NCBI GenBank assembly: GCA_003225295.1
Contig: QHYZ01000100.1
Location: forward strand, 1-41,175
Origin: Acidobacteriota bacterium
GTDB lineage: Bacteria; Acidobacteriota; Terriglobia; Acidiferrales; UBA7541
DNA: 41,175 bases
Reading direction: 5' to 3'
This document shows, one piece after another, positions 1 to 30,842 of this stretch (its first letter is position 1; every line of letters begins with the position of its first letter). The notes under the pieces are model-generated. The model ran no database searches and had not been told where the DNA came from. It saw only the letters and a list, made by a program, of their open reading frames with translations. The translations under genes and the position numbers were made by a program.

Positions 1-1770
1 GCACCACGGGTTGGGCCTTGACGGGCTCGCACCAAATGGCGCCGGCAGGAAAGGTGGCGGCCTGCACGGACTGCCACGTAGGCAGCAACTACACCTTTAC
101 GGTGGCGAACACGGACTGCTACGGCTGCCATCAGGCGGCTTGGCAGAGCACCACGACGCTCGGTGGAGCGGTACCGAATCACATCACGGCGGGCTTCCCG
201 ACCTCGCAATGCTCGACGTGCCACAACACGAATACGTGGACGTCAACCTTCAACCACGCGACGACGGGTTTCCCGCTGACCAATGCGCACCAAATGGCGC
301 CGGCGGGCAAAGTGGTGGCCTGCACGGACTGCCACATCAACAATAACTACACGCTGGCGACTGCCCCGACCGACTGCGGGAACTCGGGATGCCATTTGAC
401 GACCTGGCAGCAGACCAATAATCCGACGCACTCGGCAGCGGGAGCGCCTTTTGCGGCGGCGAATTGCTCGACATGCCACAACACCATCACCTGGACCACG
501 GCGATCTTCGACCACAGCACCACGGGTTGGGCCTTGACGGGCTCGCACCAAATGGCGCCGGCAGGAAAGGTGGCGGCCTGCACGGACTGCCACGTAGGCA
601 GCAACTACACCTTTACGGTGGCGAACACGGACTGCTACGGCTGCCATCAGCCGGCCTGGTTGAGCACGCAAACACTCGGTGGAGCGGTACCGAATCACGT
701 CACGGCGGCGTTTCCGACCTCGCAATGCTCGACGTGCCACAACACGAATACGTGGACGTCAACCTTCAACCACGCGACGACGGGTTTCCCGCTGACCAAT
801 GCGCACCAAATGGCGCCGGCGGGCAAAGTGGCGGCCTGCACGGACTGCCACATCAACAATAACTACACGCTGGCGACTGCCCCGACCGACTGCGGGAACT
901 CGGGATGCCATTTGACCACCTGGCAGCAGACCAATAATCCGACGCACGCTTCAGCCGGAGCGCCTTTTGCGGCGGCGAACTGCTCGACATGCCATAGCAC
1001 GATCACCTGGACCACGGCGACCTTCGATCACAGCACCACGGGTTGGGCCTTGACGGGCTCGCACCAAATGGCGCCGGCAGGAAAGGTGGCGGCCTGCACG
1101 GACTGCCACGTAGGGAACAACTACACCTTTACGGTGGCGAACACGGACTGCTACGGCTGCCACCAGGCGGCTTGGCAGAGCACGACGACGCTCGGTGGAG
1201 CGGTACCGAATCACGTCACGGGGGGCTTTCCGACCTCGCAATGCTCGACGTGCCACAACACGAATACGTGGACGTCAACCTTCAACCACGCGACGACGGG
1301 CTTCCCGCTGACCAATGCGCACCAAATGGCGCCGGCGGGCAAAGTGGTGGCCTGCACGGATTGCCACATCAACAATAACTACACGCTGGCGACTGCCCCG
1401 ACCGACTGCGGGAACTCGGGATGCCATTTGACCACCTGGCAGCAGACCAATAATCCGACGCACGCTTCAGCCGGAGCGCCTTTTGCAGCGGCGAACTGCT
1501 CGACATGCCATAGCACGATCACGTGGACCACGGCGACCTTCAATCACAGCTCGACAGGCTGGGCCTTGACGGGCTCGCACCAAATGGCGCCGGCAGGAAA
1601 GGTGGTGGCCTGCACGGACTGCCACGTAGGGAACAACTACACCTTCACGGTAGCGAACACGGACTGCTACGGCTGCCACGTGGCGGCTTGGCAGAGCACG
1701 ACGACGCTCGGTGGAGTGGTACCGAACCACATCACGGCCGGTTTCCCAACGGCGATTTGCTCCACATGCC
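1..1770 (+). repeat. 516-bp tandem coding repeats in the cytochrome gene
   Basis: The string beginning GCACCACGGGTTGGGCC at base 1 recurs at 517 and 1033, and in diverged form at 1549, so the period is exactly 516 bp (172 codons). Three full copies (1-516, 517-1032, 1033-1548) and a partial fourth lie in the window, and the array continues upstream. Each copy contains two 258-bp halves; the shared HQMAPAGKV motif starts at 30 and again at 288. The full copies differ at only scattered bases, many of them synonymous. This suggests recent duplication or ongoing homogenisation by recombination. The copy number could be misassembled in short-read data. Confidence 0.95.
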
Positions 1771-2264
1771 ATGACACGCTACTGTGGGCGAACGGCAAGT
1801 TCGATCACAGCACGACGGGCTGGCCGCTGCAGGGAGCACACGTGACCACGCCTTGCACTTCCTGCCACATGGGCGCCAACGCATTCAGCCTTACTTCAGC
1901 GAACACGGATTGCTATGGTTGCCATCAGGCGGCCTGGTTGAGCACGCAAACGCTCGGCGGCGTCGTGCCGAACCACGTTGCCGCGCTGTATCCAACCACC
2001 TGCTTAACCTGCCACACCACGTGGGTGACTACGGGCTGGCTAGGGGCGACCTTTACTCACTCCTATTTCCGCATTCCGCATAATGGCTCGGTCTGTTCGG
2101 ACTGCCACCTGGTCTCGACGGATTATAAGACGTTCTCCTGTGAGAATTGCCATACCTCGCCAAACGCGCACCGAGCCGGAATGTCGCATCCTACCGTTTG
2201 CACGCCATCTCCCGCATGCTGGTTCACTCCGGCGACTCGGTGCTACGACTGTCATAAGAATTAA
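1..2264 (+). CDS. giant multihaem c-type cytochrome, 5' end outside window
   Basis: The reading frame is open from base 3 to a TAA at 2262-2264, giving 753 visible residues. The TTG at 18 is only the Leu of a repeated GWALTGSH motif, so the true start lies upstream. I count 24 CXXCH motifs plus three CX4CH motifs (CGNSGCH), so up to 27 covalently bound haems in the visible part. The protein is built from 172-residue repeats, each formed by two related 86-residue halves carrying three haem motifs. Extra conserved His residues (PNH, F-x-H-x-T-T-G, GSH/NAH-Q) are likely distal haem ligands. The last ~190 residues diverge and end in CYDCHKN. Family knowledge: such proteins are exported by Sec, haem-loaded in the periplasm, and carry electrons across the periplasm or outside the cell. 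No membrane anchor is visible in this part. A role in extracellular electron transfer or nanowire formation is inference. Confidence 0.93.
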   Translation, partial: TTGWALTGSHQMAPAGKVAACTDCHVGSNYTFTVANTDCYGCHQAAWQSTTTLGGAVPNHITAGFPTSQCSTCHNTNTWTSTFNHATTGFPLTNAHQMAPAGKVVACTDCHINNNYTLATAPTDCGNSGCHLTTWQQTNNPTHSAAGAPFAAANCSTCHNTITWTTAIFDHSTTGWALTGSHQMAPAGKVAACTDCHVGSNYTFTVANTDCYGCHQPAWLSTQTLGGAVPNHVTAAFPTSQCSTCHNTNTWTSTFNHATTGFPLTNAHQMAPAGKVAACTDCHINNNYTLATAPTDCGNSGCHLTTWQQTNNPTHASAGAPFAAANCSTCHSTITWTTATFDHSTTGWALTGSHQMAPAGKVAACTDCHVGNNYTFTVANTDCYGCHQAAWQSTTTLGGAVPNHVTGGFPTSQCSTCHNTNTWTSTFNHATTGFPLTNAHQMAPAGKVVACTDCHINNNYTLATAPTDCGNSGCHLTTWQQTNNPTHASAGAPFAAANCSTCHSTITWTTATFNHSSTGWALTGSHQMAPAGKVVACTDCHVGNNYTFTVANTDCYGCHVAAWQSTTTLGGVVPNHITAGFPTAICSTCHDTLLWANGKFDHSTTGWPLQGAHVTTPCTSCHMGANAFSLTSANTDCYGCHQAAWLSTQTLGGVVPNHVAALYPTTCLTCHTTWVTTGWLGATFTHSYFRIPHNGSVCSDCHLVSTDYKTFSCENCHTSPNAHRAGMSHPTVCTPSPACWFTPATRCYDCHKN

Positions 2265-3025
2265 CGCGGGCCCGGGCCCCAATTCACGCGCTTCCGCGAC
2301 ATCGGCGGGCGCAAGAGTGCGAGAGCACGTCCTGTGGGGAACGGTAGTCGGGTTGAAGAACAGGCTAGTGCATCGAGCGATCCCGCCGAGACAACGAGCC
2401 CTCAGATGCCTTTTCAAGCTGTCTTCGGCGGTGGTTGTGGTCCTTTGTTTGGGAGGGGCGTGGCACGTTAGTGTCACTCACGGACCGGAACCGCAACCAG
2501 AGCAGACTTCCAGCAAGCCTTCCTTATTTCGCGTCCGTCGCCTTGCCATCCGCGCCGCGAAATTTGGCTCGAAGGCGACGCCGGGCAGCGGGGAAAAACG
2601 TAACCACTAAATCTCAGCGCCGAGAACTTGAGGGCCTGATAAGGATTACTCGACCTTCCTAATGTTCCTTCTCCATTACCTAGCGCTCACCAGCCTGTTC
2701 TAAAGTCCTTGAAATTCCGGCCGGTATTGTTTTCGATCCCCACCTCCCCTACGGTAGCCTCCCATCGTCTTTGTCTCGGGGTATATCTTAACTGGCACGA
2801 GGTTATCCCCTCTCGGTACATTCTAGATGGCTCGGCGTGTTTGCGACGAGGGCTTGATATCGGTAAAGTTCTGCGCGCGAGCGGCTGGAGCCAGCGTCAG
2901 ATAAAAACGCTGCGACTACGACGGGGATTATTGTGGCAGAGCGTGCAGGGCGAAACAGAAGGACTCTGGACGTCGTTCCTGTTGTTGTCGGCGATTAGAT
3001 CGGAGTTCTCAGCAAAACGATCTCT
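2265..3025. other. 761-bp region without a convincing gene
   Basis: This lies between the cytochrome stop and the next gene. A GC palindrome (GGGCCCGGGCCC, 2268-2279) follows the stop directly, but no T-run follows it, so it is not a standard intrinsic terminator. One plus-strand frame from a GTG at 2317 to 2610 encodes about 97 residues, including a short hydrophobic stretch (SSAVVVVLCLGG) in an Arg-rich context. It has no good ribosome site and no recognisable family, so I do not call it. A frame at 2709-3053 overlaps the next gene and looks spurious. Promoters for the next gene should lie here, but I cannot place one with confidence. Confidence 0.5.
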
Positions 3026-5641
3026 ATGTCTCCTAACAATCACTGGCGCCTGATTACCGCGCTTCTCATTGCCTGGGCAGTCCTCGTACTTGGCACGCGT
3101 TCCTCGCGCGCCTGGCAGGCTTCGGAGACCGCCGTGGTCCCTTTGCAAGTCATCGTCGTTAGTTCCGCCGCCGAAGCCCGGTTGGTCCGTGACAGGCTGA
3201 AAAACGGCGAGGATTTTGCAGCGCTTGCGAGAGAGAAATCCATCGATCCGTACGCCGACCAAGGCGGATACGTTGGAGAAGTGGACCCGGCGACGCTGCG
3301 CATTGAATTGCGGGAGGCGCTTAAGGGGCTGGCGCCAGGACAAGTGAGCGGGATCGTCGAACTCCAGAACCCGCCCAACACCGTGATCGGCTACGCCATC
3401 CTTAGGATTTTGTCGAAAAACGAGTCCCCCTCTGCTGGCCGCCAGAGCATGGGTGTAAACCGTGACCTTCCCCTTTCGGCCAAGGGCGCGCTGCGCTTTC
3501 CGGTTGACATTGCGGGGCAGGTCATCGCCAATCTCCTCTTTCAAAAATTTCCCAAACCTGTCGGATGGAGCCAAGACTTGAGCGAGATCTGTAGGATCCG
3601 CAAACAATCACTCTCCAACATGGTGGACCGCCTCGAAAAACGCCTCGACCCACTGCACCCGGAGCAATTGTCCGGAGAGAAACCTTTTGACGTGATCCAG
3701 GAACATTACGCGCTGGCGCAGCTCCATGCCTACCAGGGAAACATGGACCAGGCCATTAAGCAGTGGGAGGCGGCGTATCGCATTGCGGCCGAAATCCCCG
3801 GCGGCAGGCCTCAACTGGAGGAAGTCCTAGGGACAGCTCATCTGCATAAAGCGGAGATAGAAAACGGAGTCTATCGCACTCCCGGTGACCGATGCCTGTT
3901 TCCCCCGCGTCCCGGCAATCCATTTCCCAAATACGAAATTAGCAGCGACTCTATAAAAGCGATCCAGTATTTCACGAAATATCTTGAAACTAAGCCCGAA
4001 GATCTCGAGGTCAAATGGCTCCTGAATCTGGCCTACATGACTCTCGGTAAGTACCCAGCGGCTGTTCCGCAAAAATACCTGATTCCTCCCAGCGCATTTG
4101 AATCCAAGGAGGACATCGGCCGATTCTCCGACGTGGCCGTGGCAGCGGGATTGAAACTGTTTTCGATGGCCGGGGGTGTCATCGTGGACGACTTAGAGAA
4201 CAACGGACTTCTCGATGTGGTGACATCCAGCTACGACGTTTGCGAATCGATGCATTACTTCCACAACAACGGAGATGGCACGTTCACCGATCGCACAGCC
4301 GAGGCTGGCCTGGCCGGTCAGCTAAGCGGTCTGAACATGATTCAGGCGGATTACAACAACGACGGGTGCACGGATATCCTGGTATTGAGAGGTGCCTGGG
4401 AATTCCCCATGCGCAAATCGCTACTTCGAAACAATTGCGATGGTACATTCACCGATGTTACGCGCGAGGCTGGCCTGGCCGAACCAGCGACAAGCACGCA
4501 GACTGCCGTTTGGGCGGACATCGACAACGACGGTTATCTGGACCTGCTGGTCGGCAACGAGAATGGTACCAGCCAGCTCTTCCACAACAAGGGTGACGGT
4601 ACCTTTGAGGACATTTCCCGCGCTGCCGGTGTGGATCGAAAAGCATTCACCAAGGGCGTTAACGCCGCGGATTATGACAATGACGGCTATGTGGATTTCT
4701 ATGTCTCCAATCTCTATGGCGGCAACTTTCTCTACCACAACAATCATGACCGAACCTTTTCGGAAGTCTCTGAGCGGGCAGGCGTGCACCAGCCACAATC
4801 GCAAAGCTTTGCAACATGGTTCTTCGATTACGACAATGATGGCTGGCCCGACCTGTTCGTCACGAGCTACTACTTTTCCTTGGACGAATCCTTGCGGAGC
4901 TATCTTGGCCGTCCCCACAATGCTGAAACTCTGAAACTCTACAGGAACCTGGGAAACGGGACTTTCAGAGACGTCACCAAAGACGTGGGGCTCGACAAGA
5001 TCTTCTTACCCATGGGTGCCAACTTTGGCGACGTCGATAACGACGGATTCCTGGACATTTACCTAGGGACTGGCGGTCCCGAATATGGCGCAATGGCTCC
5101 CAACGCGTTGCTTCGCAACCACGCAGGAAAATACTTTGCGGATATTACTGCGTCTTCCGGTACCGGGGAACTTCACAAAGGCCACGGTATCGCCTTCGCC
5201 GACCTCGGAAATAATGGCCATGAGGATATCCTTCTCAATTCTGGCGGTGCCACGCCCGGTGATGCCCACGCTTTCCGCGTTTTCAGAAATCCCGGCAACA
5301 ATAATGACTGGATTACCGTGAGGCTTGCCGGCGTGAAAACGAATCGTTGCGCCATCGGCGCGCGCATCAAAATCACCGTGGAAAACGAAAGCCATGCCAT
5401 CCGTTCCATCTATCGCATCGTCGGAAGTGGTGGCTCTTTCGGCGCCTCGCCCTTGCAGCAGCACATTGGCCTTGGCAAAGCCGTCCGGATTGTGAATCTC
5501 GAGGTCGATTGGCCGGCGAGCAAGACTCGCCAGAGTTTCTCGAATGTGCCCAAGAACCAGATCATCGAAATCAAAGAGTTCGCCACAGCCTATAGAGAGC
5601 TGCCACACCGGATCTTTGGGCTCGGACCGGCGAAGCGATAA
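3026..5641 (+). CDS. secreted PpiC-like/TPR/FG-GAP (VCBS) protein with ASPIC/UnbV domain (CRTAC1-like)
   Basis: This encodes 871 residues. Residues 1-30 form a Sec signal peptide (hydrophobic LITALLIAWAVLVLG, then SRAWQAS). Residues ~40-130 resemble a parvulin-type PpiC rotamase (GEDFAALAREKS, QGGYVGEV, LAPGQVSGIV), but the usual first His (HILV) is replaced by VIVV and the C-terminal His is absent, so catalysis is doubtful. TPR-like helices follow at ~215-350. From ~363 come FG-GAP/VCBS blades with Ca2+-binding DxDxDGxxD-type loops: ADYNNDGCTD, ADIDNDGYLD, ADYDNDGYVD, FDYDNDGWPD, GDVDNDGFLD and a degenerate ADLGNNGHED. Residues ~760-850 form an ASPIC/UnbV domain. It is probably a periplasmic or surface propeller protein; its substrate is unknown. 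A SCO gene follows 26 bp downstream, probably in the same operon. No strong ribosome site precedes the ATG. Confidence 0.88.
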   Translation: MSPNNHWRLITALLIAWAVLVLGTRSSRAWQASETAVVPLQVIVVSSAAEARLVRDRLKNGEDFAALAREKSIDPYADQGGYVGEVDPATLRIELREALKGLAPGQVSGIVELQNPPNTVIGYAILRILSKNESPSAGRQSMGVNRDLPLSAKGALRFPVDIAGQVIANLLFQKFPKPVGWSQDLSEICRIRKQSLSNMVDRLEKRLDPLHPEQLSGEKPFDVIQEHYALAQLHAYQGNMDQAIKQWEAAYRIAAEIPGGRPQLEEVLGTAHLHKAEIENGVYRTPGDRCLFPPRPGNPFPKYEISSDSIKAIQYFTKYLETKPEDLEVKWLLNLAYMTLGKYPAAVPQKYLIPPSAFESKEDIGRFSDVAVAAGLKLFSMAGGVIVDDLENNGLLDVVTSSYDVCESMHYFHNNGDGTFTDRTAEAGLAGQLSGLNMIQADYNNDGCTDILVLRGAWEFPMRKSLLRNNCDGTFTDVTREAGLAEPATSTQTAVWADIDNDGYLDLLVGNENGTSQLFHNKGDGTFEDISRAAGVDRKAFTKGVNAADYDNDGYVDFYVSNLYGGNFLYHNNHDRTFSEVSERAGVHQPQSQSFATWFFDYDNDGWPDLFVTSYYFSLDESLRSYLGRPHNAETLKLYRNLGNGTFRDVTKDVGLDKIFLPMGANFGDVDNDGFLDIYLGTGGPEYGAMAPNALLRNHAGKYFADITASSGTGELHKGHGIAFADLGNNGHEDILLNSGGATPGDAHAFRVFRNPGNNNDWITVRLAGVKTNRCAIGARIKITVENESHAIRSIYRIVGSGGSFGASPLQQHIGLGKAVRIVNLEVDWPASKTRQSFSNVPKNQIIEIKEFATAYRELPHRIFGLGPAKR

Positions 5642-5667: not shown

Positions 5668-6543
5668 ATGAGGCGATGGTCATTCCTGCTGGCCGCATTG
5701 GCGGTTGCCGGAGTTAGCACCGCCGCCGCGCGGTATTATTCGGCGACGGGGCTAGTGCTGAAAATCGACCGGCCTCATCGGGGGATGGTTGTCTCCTGCG
5801 AAGCCATTCGCGGGTACATGGACGCCATGGTGATGTCTTTCGCTGTGAGTCGGCCCGAGGATCTGAGAGGCTTGGAGCCCGGCGTGACAATCGATTTCAC
5901 GCTAGTTGTGGATAAGGACTCCGCTCATGCTGAAAACGTCCGCATCCGCAAGTTCGAGAGTCTGGAGCAAGAGCCTCAGGCTGCTCGACGCCTGAAACTG
6001 TTGGAGAATCTTGACGCCGTCGGACCTAGCATAAGGCCACTGGCCGTTGGCGAACCTGTGCCAAATTTCACGCTAACGGATCAAAACCGCCAGCAAGTTT
6101 CTCTTTCACAGTTTGCAGGCAAGGTCGTGGCCATCAACTTTATCTATACACGTTGTCCCTTGCCGAATTACTGTTTCCGTCTCTCCAACAATTTTGGGCT
6201 CCTGCAGAAGCGTTTCCGAAGCCGGCTGGGCCGGAACGTTGTCTTGCTCACCATCACGTTCGATCCCGAACACGACCAGCCGGAAGTCCTGGCGAATTAC
6301 GCGCACACATGGAATTACGACCCGCTGTCGTGGCACTTCCTGACGGGGAACGCTGCCGACGTCCGGCAACTGTGCAGGAGGTTTGGCGTGATGTATTGGC
6401 CGGACGAATCCGTGCTCACTCATTCCTTGCAGACCGTCATTATTGATCGCCAGGGTAAATTGGCGGCCAGCCTCGAGGGCAATCAGTTCACAGCCAAGCA
6501 ATTGGGTGACCTGGTCGAAACCTTGATGGATCACCCCAATTGA
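5668..6543 (+). CDS. CusF-like domain fused to SCO1/SenC copper chaperone
   Basis: This encodes 291 residues, with AGGAG about 10 bp before the ATG at 5668. Residues 1-22 form a signal peptide or membrane anchor. Residues ~25-95 match the CusF-like copper-binding fold (GYMDAMVMSFAV, then GLEPGVTIDFTLVV); Met54 and Met56 fit CusF ligands, while the usual His is Cys44. Residues ~125-290 form a thioredoxin-like SCO1/SenC domain with the metal/redox site C163-PLPNY-C169 (CX5C rather than the classical CX3C) and the conserved His252. SCO proteins deliver Cu+ to the CuA site of cytochrome c oxidase or act as thiol reductases. It lies 26 bp after the VCBS/ASPIC gene, so the two are probably co-transcribed. 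A role in copper loading is likely; the partner oxidase is not in the window. Confidence 0.9.
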   Translation: MRRWSFLLAALAVAGVSTAAARYYSATGLVLKIDRPHRGMVVSCEAIRGYMDAMVMSFAVSRPEDLRGLEPGVTIDFTLVVDKDSAHAENVRIRKFESLEQEPQAARRLKLLENLDAVGPSIRPLAVGEPVPNFTLTDQNRQQVSLSQFAGKVVAINFIYTRCPLPNYCFRLSNNFGLLQKRFRSRLGRNVVLLTITFDPEHDQPEVLANYAHTWNYDPLSWHFLTGNAADVRQLCRRFGVMYWPDESVLTHSLQTVIIDRQGKLAASLEGNQFTAKQLGDLVETLMDHPN

Positions 6544-29702: not shown

Positions 29703-30842
29703 TCACGATTCGGTCTCCCGCTCAGGGTCGAACGGCTCTGCCGCAAGCTTGCCATCGGCTCTCTTCAGGAGGATTTCCACTCGGCCCTCGGCCTCTTCCA
29801 GTTGCTTCTGGCATTCGCGTGAGAGCGCGACGCCCTCCTCGAACAGCTTCATCGCGTCGTCCAGAGAGAGTTGCGGGCTTTCCAAGCGGCGAACGACTTC
29901 CTCCAGGCGGGCAAGCGAGCGCTCAAAATCGGGTTTTTTCTGCAGTTCAGGTTTCTTAGTAGCAGGTGTATTCACGCGATCGGTCCGTATCCTTTGGTGC
30001 GCCCATTCCTGACAGCGCCTACACCAGTAAGTTGACCGGCCGCCCTGTGCCATACGCCGGATCGGCTCACCGCAGCGGCGGCAGGATCTTCCCTCGCGGC
30101 CGTAGGCGCGAAGAAAACGTTCCAACCCTTCGAACCACCACTCCGGATCGCGAAAGTTGGGCGCCGGATGCAGACAGCATTCTAAAGCACGCGCGAGAAC
30201 AGACACAATTGCTTTGTGCAAGCGGCGCGCCTCCCGCGGTTTCAACGTGTTGGCGCGGCGGCGAGGGTCGAGGCGAGCCTGCCACAGCGATTCGCAAGAG
30301 TAGATGTTGCCGATACCAGCGACCCGCGATTGATCCAGCAAGAAGTCCTTCAACGGACGCTTGGACGCGGAGAGCAATGCGGCAAAGCAGTGGGGGGTGA
30401 AATCGCGCGAGAGGGCGTCGATGCCCAAGGCGTTGAGGCCAGGGCAATCATCAACGGATTTCCAGAGGTGAAGGTGGCCAAAATGGCGGCGATCGGCGAA
30501 GCCGAGGACGCCTTTGTCCAGTTCGAGGGCAACATCGACGTGCACGCCGTTTTCACCCTGGTTGGCGCGCTCCCGCAGTTCTTGGCCGTTCGAAAACCAT
30601 AGGAGTTGGCCATCGAGCCGAAAGTGCATCGTCAGCAGCCCGCGGTCCAATACGAGAAGCACATATTTCCCTTGGCGATCGACAATGCGAATGCGGCGGC
30701 CCTGGGCTTGGCGAGCGACCTGCGCAGGGTCTTGGGGCTTCGTGGCGATGGGGTGAAGGACGTGAACGCAACGAATTTTCCGGCCCTGGACGAGGGGACG
30801 TAGCGTGCGAACGACAGCTTCCACTTCCGGGAGTTCGGGCAT
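29703..30842 (-). CDS. fusion of formamidopyrimidine-DNA glycosylase (Fpg/MutM) and exonuclease VII small subunit (XseB)
   Basis: One uninterrupted 379-residue frame. Residues 1-~282 are Fpg: catalytic N-terminal PELPEVE (Pro2, Glu3 after Met removal), the Lys of RQGKYV, the H2TH region QSRVAGIGNIYSCESLW, and a C-terminal zinc finger (CRRCGEPIRRM ... YWCRRCQEW). Residues ~297-365 are XseB (FERSLARLEEVVRRLESPQL, SLDDAMKLFEEGVALSRECQ), a helical subunit of exonuclease VII. No stop separates the two parts. A GTG at 29975 (residue 290) could give a separate 90-residue XseB by internal initiation. Fpg excises oxidised purines and nicks DNA; XseB supports XseA in single-strand degradation. xseA is not in the window. 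Cotranscribed with ispA downstream and the acylase gene upstream (15 bp). Confidence 0.9.
   Translation of the reverse strand: MPELPEVEAVVRTLRPLVQGRKIRCVHVLHPIATKPQDPAQVARQAQGRRIRIVDRQGKYVLLVLDRGLLTMHFRLDGQLLWFSNGQELRERANQGENGVHVDVALELDKGVLGFADRRHFGHLHLWKSVDDCPGLNALGIDALSRDFTPHCFAALLSASKRPLKDFLLDQSRVAGIGNIYSCESLWQARLDPRRRANTLKPREARRLHKAIVSVLARALECCLHPAPNFRDPEWWFEGLERFLRAYGREGRSCRRCGEPIRRMAQGGRSTYWCRRCQEWAHQRIRTDRVNTPATKKPELQKKPDFERSLARLEEVVRRLESPQLSLDDAMKLFEEGVALSRECQKQLEEAEGRVEILLKRADGKLAAEPFDPERETES

Follow-up and report, generated by a model that had tools for sequence, protein, structure and literature searches.

A repeat-built multihaem cytochrome gene of an Acidobacteriota genome, probably an orphan copy from a PCC3-like cluster in which haem number varies in steps of three

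The window analysed here is the entire 41,175-nt contig QHYZ01000100.1 (contig C233) of a metagenome-assembled genome (MAG) of a soil Acidobacteriota bacterium, 8.13 Mb in 385 contigs (GCA_003225295.1). Its left end lies within a gene for a cytochrome of tandem haem modules, hereafter cytB, whose 5'-truncated reading frame spans positions 3-2264 on the forward strand and is open at the contig end. We read this gene as the 3' part of an extra, orphan copy of the haem-rich cytochrome of a PCC3-like gene cluster, in which a haem chain is lengthened and shortened by turnover of a module array, and we give this account as a whole a probability of about 0.7. Judged from sequence, the length of complete cytB genes in relatives is quantised in steps of three haems, whereas the partner cytochrome in the same clusters is nearly constant.

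A repeat search found copies at positions 1, 517, 1033 and 1549, with a period of exactly 516 nt. The three whole units (1-516, 517-1032 and 1033-1548, all on the forward strand) are 95.2, 95.5 and 96.1% identical in pairwise comparison (20-25 differences), and the beginning of a diverged fourth unit follows at 1549-1848 (forward strand, 76% identity over 300 nt). Each unit contains six CXnCH haem motifs, five CX2CH and one CX4CH. The preliminary description of this DNA, made from its letters alone, had proposed near-identical six-haem units of exact 516-bp period in an array that continues past the window, and our results agree: the array reaches the left edge of the window, which is the end of the contig, and only the 3' part of the gene is present. 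It had also divided each unit into two 86-residue halves. This division holds as a protein period (Tandem Repeats Finder reports a period of 258 nt with 66% matches and 8% indels) but not as near-identity, since halves in register share only ~47-50% nucleotide identity, with a synonymous divergence (dS) above 1. The 516-bp units differ pairwise by a dS of 0.097-0.136 and a nonsynonymous divergence (dN) of 0.021-0.028 (dN/dS, or omega, ~0.2); the halves are thus old and their pairing in the unit is recent.

The open reading frame (ORF) encodes 753 residues with 27 haem motifs (24 CX2CH and 3 CX4CH) and exactly 27 histidines outside the motifs, and can be parsed into eight modules of three haems each, plus a terminal block that also has three. 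Interior modules m1-m6, of 258 nt each, occupy 63-1610 (forward strand, coordinates counted from base 3, where the ORF begins). Two module types alternate, CX2CH/CX2CH/CX2CH and CX2CH/CX4CH/CX2CH. The three units are followed by a diverged pair of edge modules, m7 and m8 (81 and 80 residues, 1611-2093, forward strand), which group by position with the edge modules of relatives, and then by the terminal block with the stop codon (2094-2264, forward strand).

The protein matches Pfam Cytochrome_C7 with 122.9 bits (cut-off 24.8), and all listed Cytochrome_C7 matches on contig C233 fall within this gene. It narrowly passes NCBIfam TIGR04257 (nanowire_3heme) with 41.2 bits (cut-off 40), and the relatives at loci L073 and L115 are above this cut-off with 63.2 and 57.1 bits. 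The window protein alone has no match among PDB sequences at E 0.01. A four-module profile (95 rows, from 93 of 187 alignment segments plus two rows of the window locus) matches the sixteen-haem cytochrome 1Z1N (E 4.6e-10) and the dodecahaem Geobacter protein GSU1996 (3OV0, E 3.5e-6, in a single stretch of 248 residues). In a two-module alignment of 119 rows (116 of 141 segments plus three rows of the window locus), the 119 rows, chosen for intact motifs, all agree (119/119) at six motif positions and at six positions of free histidines. Since segments were cut by haem motif and, in the two-module set, also by a terminal [FYW]xH, just five of the free histidines count as independent evidence. 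Three invariant free histidines per module suggest bis-His ligation throughout, so each module is predicted to hold three bis-His-ligated haems. Threonine, serine, alanine and glycine make up 45% of the window protein (means over 17 chosen loci: 38.7 for cytB, 30.6 for cytA), and cytB at these loci has 25-29 residues per haem. The product of the window gene is probably an exported multihaem cytochrome of tandem c7-like modules.

Haems were counted from stop to stop at 55 loci (L080-L134). Eight loci have no cytochrome in the stretch, ten genes open at contig ends were left out, and three loci were dropped by hand as split or atypical (L083 with 18/8/9 haems, L114 with 4/19/5/23 and L127 with 23). 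The remaining 34 complete Acidobacteriota cytB genes have 22 (seven loci), 23, 25 (three), 28 (three), 31 (four), 32, 34 (four), 40 (two), 43, 46 (two), 49, 52, 55, 58, 61 and 79 haems. Thirty-two of the 34 numbers equal 1 modulo 3, or 4+3n+3, which corresponds to four haems in an N-terminal block, three in each of n modules and three at the end. Among the 16 distinct values, 14 fit this rule (binomial probability at 1/3 of 1.2e-5, ignoring relatedness). One exception, L108 (32 haems, on the same contig as L077), has an extra motif upstream of the likely start and 31 motifs from that start; the other, L129 (23 haems, on the same contig as L078), is a sequence with broken haem sites. The smallest complete gene in the wider parsed set, G030b, has 19 haems. 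The partner cytochrome is complete at 28 of the 34 loci and has 23 haems in 27 of them and 21 in L107; it runs off the contig at four loci, and none lies in the stretch at L082 and L104. The partner in the window's own genome, on contig C245, has 23 haems as well. At 12 loci of other phyla the gene order differs and the partner has 17 to 23 haems; eight of ten large second cytochromes fit the modulo-3 rule there, the exceptions having 32 and 29 haems.

The module therefore comprises three haems rather than six, a reading of the sequences that is apparently new. Six haems as a universal step was rejected, and the step of about six given in the preliminary description needs correcting: the elementary step across species is three, and the step of six belongs to arrays of two alternating module types, such as those of the window and of L086 compared with L087. 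At the upper end of the range, L115:1489-7533 (Candidatus Solibacter sp.) is one frame of 2015 residues with 79 haem motifs and no N in the DNA.

Haem number was mapped onto a 34-taxon tree built from the inner-membrane proteins of these loci, with L108 entered as 31 and L129 as 25. It requires 25 changes, against a mean of 24.9 in 1000 shuffles (662 at or below 25); haem number is thus without detectable phylogenetic signal, and length changes fast. The closest pair, L086 and L087 (95.3% identity of the inner-membrane protein), has 49 and 43 haems. Their edges agree, and the two genes are roughly collinear if the module pair m4-m5 of L086 is taken as extra, with three of six further L086 interior modules matching another L087 module as well or better. 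L095 and L099 (87.3%) have 34 and 31 haems, and L082 and L104 (85.0%) have 25 and 22, each pair being collinear save one extra module. L120 and L122 (78.3%) both have 22 haems, and the C93 gene of the window's genome and its 94%-identical relative in genome G015 both have 25. The earlier suggestion, a modular chain able to lengthen and shorten, has good support from these comparisons between species and also from module phylogeny and dS within the window's own lineage.

The same observations suit a neutral turnover of repeats, in which length above a minimum is unselected and does not tune reach, as haem number has no phylogenetic signal and sister loci stand one or two modules apart. On the other side, haem sites and free histidines are kept in all rows of the two-module alignment (selected as described above) and omega between units is ~0.2, so the modules look constrained, and the neighbouring 23-haem cytochrome hardly varies in Acidobacteriota. 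We consider neutral turnover a serious contender, with a chance somewhat below even. The preliminary description had also proposed that variation in chain length could tune the reach of electron transfer. It may do so, but the data also suit neutral turnover and charge storage.

In a module tree of 10 of the 20 parsed genes, edge modules cluster by position across genomes. The interior modules behave otherwise in some genes: all six in the window are nearest to a module of their own genome, as are m6-m9 of G011, four of nine modules of G019, and m3 and m4 of G017. Mean interior dS is 0.12-0.16 within the window, 0.18-0.19 between the window and the paralogue on contig C42, 0.26-0.32 within G011, and 0.51-0.74 between the window's genome and G011, which belongs to the same genus. 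For calibration, the dS between these two genomes is 0.56 for the 23-haem cytochrome and 0.27 for the barrel-like gene. The whole C42 repeat cytochrome gives 0.55 against G011, with the register uncertain, and single positional modules compared between C42 and G011 scatter widely (1.55 for m1/m1 and 0.23 for m4/m4). The array has turned over recently in the window's lineage, and the comparison of synonymous divergence that the preliminary description had suggested as a check points to homogenisation in this lineage only. At their 3' ends the window and C42 copies are further apart than in their interiors, with a dS of 0.39 and an omega of ~0.22. Interiors closer than 3' ends suggest exchange between the two loci, or chimeric assembly.

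An assembly artefact, with units falsely multiplied or chimeric among C233, C42 and C93, would be in keeping with the fact that C233 and C42 both start within the gene and with exact recurrences at contig ends: the first 134 bp of C233 recur exactly at 517, and exact overlaps of 135-182 bp are found among the ends of C245, C184 and C42. However, the units differ from one another at 20-25 sites, and the same kind of array occurs in many separately assembled genomes, including Occallatibacter savannae AB23 (L106, 34 haems) and L095, where the 34 haems are encoded on a 1.06-Mb contig. We therefore regard such an artefact as very improbable. The case named in the preliminary description, a single copy multiplied in assembly, is likewise unlikely given these differences and the related arrays on other contigs and in other genomes. 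Joining the own-genome contigs into whole genes was considered from the exact end overlaps and set aside; the pairing of 5' parts (C245 or C184) with 3' parts (C42 or C233) is ambiguous. The ends of C42 and C368 share no exact overlap, and the first bases of C368 lie within a second barrel-like gene.

The cluster to which cytB belongs was reconstructed from the window's own genome and from relatives. Searched as DNA against the own genome, window positions 1-560 match contigs C233, C42 and C93 only. The C42 paralogue has 966 residues and 36 haems and is open at its 5' end, and the C93 paralogue is a complete open frame of 698 residues with 25 haems. Weaker matches lie on C245 and C184, whose ends carry the 5' ends of repeat-cytochrome genes; on C245 the order is histidine kinase, response regulator, 23-haem cytochrome and start of the repeat cytochrome. 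Downstream of the C42 cytB lies a gene for a protein of ~596 residues that is probably an outer-membrane barrel, and barrel-like proteins of ~550-600 residues also follow cytB in several relatives. Neither of the two barrel-like proteins that were scanned matches a Pfam or NCBIfam family. A search with the C93 protein gave matches in 17 of 61 genomes, the own genome included, and 20 stretches were taken for comparison. The fullest clusters contain a 23-haem cytochrome, the repeat cytochrome, a barrel-like protein, a protein of ~300 residues and an inner-membrane protein. The inner-membrane protein occurs in 10 of the 20 stretches, with two WX3HX13H motifs in nine (in L075 the tryptophan of the first motif is replaced by glycine) and SGXXG in all ten.

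An alignment of the inner-membrane proteins was used to scan named genomes. Among the best 80 of the 376 loci that it found, titles are mostly Acidobacteria, Terriglobia, Bryobacterales and Solibacter, with some Gemmatimonadota, KSB1, Calditrichota, Neomarinimicrobiota, Ignavibacteriae, Zixibacteria and Bacteroidota. Both WX3HX13H motifs and SGXXG are present in 74 of these 80, loci that were found partly through such patterns. In the own genome the profile matches C368:1122-2057 and, weakly, C160. A plasmid search gave only distant relatives of the inner-membrane protein, in Emticicia (E 2e-23) and Methylophaga (E 5e-5). We note that L162 (G000:C368:1-2057) carries the 3' end of a second barrel-like gene and then an inner-membrane gene, and may be a second copy of the cluster in the own genome. 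We also note that L119 (CALQCC020000017.1), titled 'Bordetella parapertussis', has a cluster matching G046:C17, a relative from the same class as the window, and is probably a mislabelled MAG.

Reports on PCC3 (He et al. 2017, PMC5566968; Gallionellaceae, PMC10734462) describe two haem-rich cytochromes with medians of 34 and 21 haems, a porin, low-complexity repeats rich in threonine, serine, alanine and glycine, and an inner-membrane protein of ~300 residues with two WX3HX13H motifs and SGXXG. The haem-rich cytochrome pair, these repeats and the motifs of the inner-membrane protein are common to both systems. By gene content and motifs, the cluster of relatives is probably PCC3-like and works like the PCC3 conduit. 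In an intact cluster, the route of electrons between the quinone pool and the cell exterior would run via the inner-membrane b-type protein, the 23-haem cytochrome, the outer-membrane barrel and the repeat cytochrome. Flow may go in either direction (iron oxidation or reduction), and the locations of the cytochromes are predictions. The chain of the repeat cytochrome would stand outside the barrel and, provided that neighbouring modules place their haems close enough to conduct, its modules would make one unbroken chain of haems like that of GSU1996. Array length would be altered by unequal recombination, slippage or gene conversion, such that interior modules are gained and lost, and homogenised in the window's lineage, while N- and C-terminal edge modules stay. 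Length may also have a function.

Alternatively, cytB may act as a charge capacitor, in which the number of modules sets storage capacity and not reach. A capacitor role has been proposed for GSU1996 (PMC10138318) and for PCC3 (PMC10734462), and the low number of residues per haem in cytB would suit it. The probable outer-membrane barrel and the inner-membrane protein alongside point to a conduit, and storage and conduction are mutually compatible. We consider a primary role in storage possible, yet on the unlikely side. A further reading, which we put forward tentatively as rather less than probable, is that these genes form a natural length ladder: single-polypeptide chains of 22 to 79 haems in steps of three, each a fast-evolving tandem array serving as the outer cytochrome of a PCC3-like conduit, homogenised within a genome and exchanged between cluster and orphan copies, whose wire length could be reset in short evolutionary times, perhaps within species, with the rest of the conduit constant.

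Several observations weigh against the orphan-copy account that we prefer. The window locus holds only the repeat cytochrome and a 60-residue remnant of a barrel gene, with no intact porin, partner or inner-membrane gene adjoining, and in two relatives, L082 (= L070) and L104 (= L069), the repeat cytochrome lacks a neighbouring 23-haem gene. The paralogues do not pass TIGR04257 (C42 has no NCBIfam match and C93 reaches 19.3 bits). AlphaFold models, which are weak and haem-free (pLDDT 62 and pTM 0.29 for four modules, pLDDT 75 and pTM 0.59 for two), gave with Foldseek only 3OUE at E 5.6 for four modules and nothing for two, and VIA gave no match. No interior module is nearest to its own genome in G018 (0/6) or G024b (0/7); compared with the pattern in the window and G011, this shows homogenisation in one lineage and not as a general rule. 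Finally, almost every genome is a MAG and contig ends cut through many cytB genes, which may leave the copy numbers collapsed.

The barrel remnant lies at 2368-2547 (forward strand) and corresponds to the decayed start of the gene that follows cytB in C42: the C42 barrel-like protein matches the window by tblastn with 38% identity over 60 residues (E 1.6e-5; next window match E 0.20), and DNA identity is 72.5% over 171 bp at window positions 2211-2380. No barrel-gene match was found near C93. With only cytB and a decayed barrel start at its locus, the window copy is an orphan that may have no conduit or may be in decay. The orphan copies of the window and C93 could be pseudogenes in early decay or mere recombination donors for the cluster copy; the barrel remnant and the lower dS of the window and C42 interiors (0.18-0.19) than of their 3' ends (0.39) speak for this. 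On the other side, the window frame is open with an omega of ~0.2, retains all 27 haem sites and has an omega of ~0.22 against C42 at its 3' end, and C93 is a complete open frame. We think it rather unlikely that these copies are only decaying genes or donors.

PCC3, its repeats and its large, variable haem numbers are already published: the extracellular cytochrome has 10-35 haems in Gallionellaceae and 63 in Amphritea (PMC5566968, PMC10734462), and in Gallionellaceae the partner has 21, 24 or 27 and the extracellular cytochrome 10 to 18, 26, 28, 29, 33 or 35 (PMC10734462). The present clusters differ in four respects. They occur in Acidobacteriota and, with another gene order, in several other phyla; their partner is near-fixed at 23, whereas the Gallionellaceae partner itself varies in threes; their repeat cytochrome varies in threes, whereas the Gallionellaceae extracellular counts do not; and the 516-bp units are nearly identical in DNA, the likeness to PCC3 being one of content and motifs. 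GSU1996 is described (PMC10138318) as a periplasmic protein of four domains with one His-Met haem per domain and haems 3-5 Å apart edge to edge. It resembles cytB in having tandem three-haem c7-type domains in one chain (3OV0, 3OUE; TIGR04257), and differs in that cytB has three free histidines per module, more modules and a porin-type cluster.

OmcS, OmcE and OmcZ form long haem chains for extracellular electron transfer that are lengthened by polymerising subunits, whereas here chain length is encoded in one gene. Among the literature matches listed, by title and opening of the abstract and with subscription papers and preprints mostly outside the search, there was no report of three-haem quantisation against a near-fixed partner, of turnover or homogenisation of haem arrays, or of PCC3 in Acidobacteriota. 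These clusters bear on what the many haems of very haem-rich cytochromes serve: reach, storage or nothing in particular. Clusters that differ strongly in module number next to a near-unchanging partner are a ready-made series for tests of chain length, with a bearing on current, charge storage and mineral access. The variation also suggests that haem counts based on short-read assemblies can reflect a trait that evolves quickly and is sensitive to assembly.

Three other genes of the window were noted for their domain combinations. At 3026-5641 (forward strand), one protein contains a PPIC-type PPIase domain, FG-GAP repeats and ASPIC/UnbV, with TPR below the cut-off. The gene at 5668-6543 (forward strand) encodes a CusF-like copper domain fused to an SCO1/SenC domain. 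At 29703-30842 (reverse strand), the domains of MutM (formamidopyrimidine-DNA glycosylase) and the small subunit of exonuclease VII are found in one frame (Pfam, residues 1-278 and 306-357).

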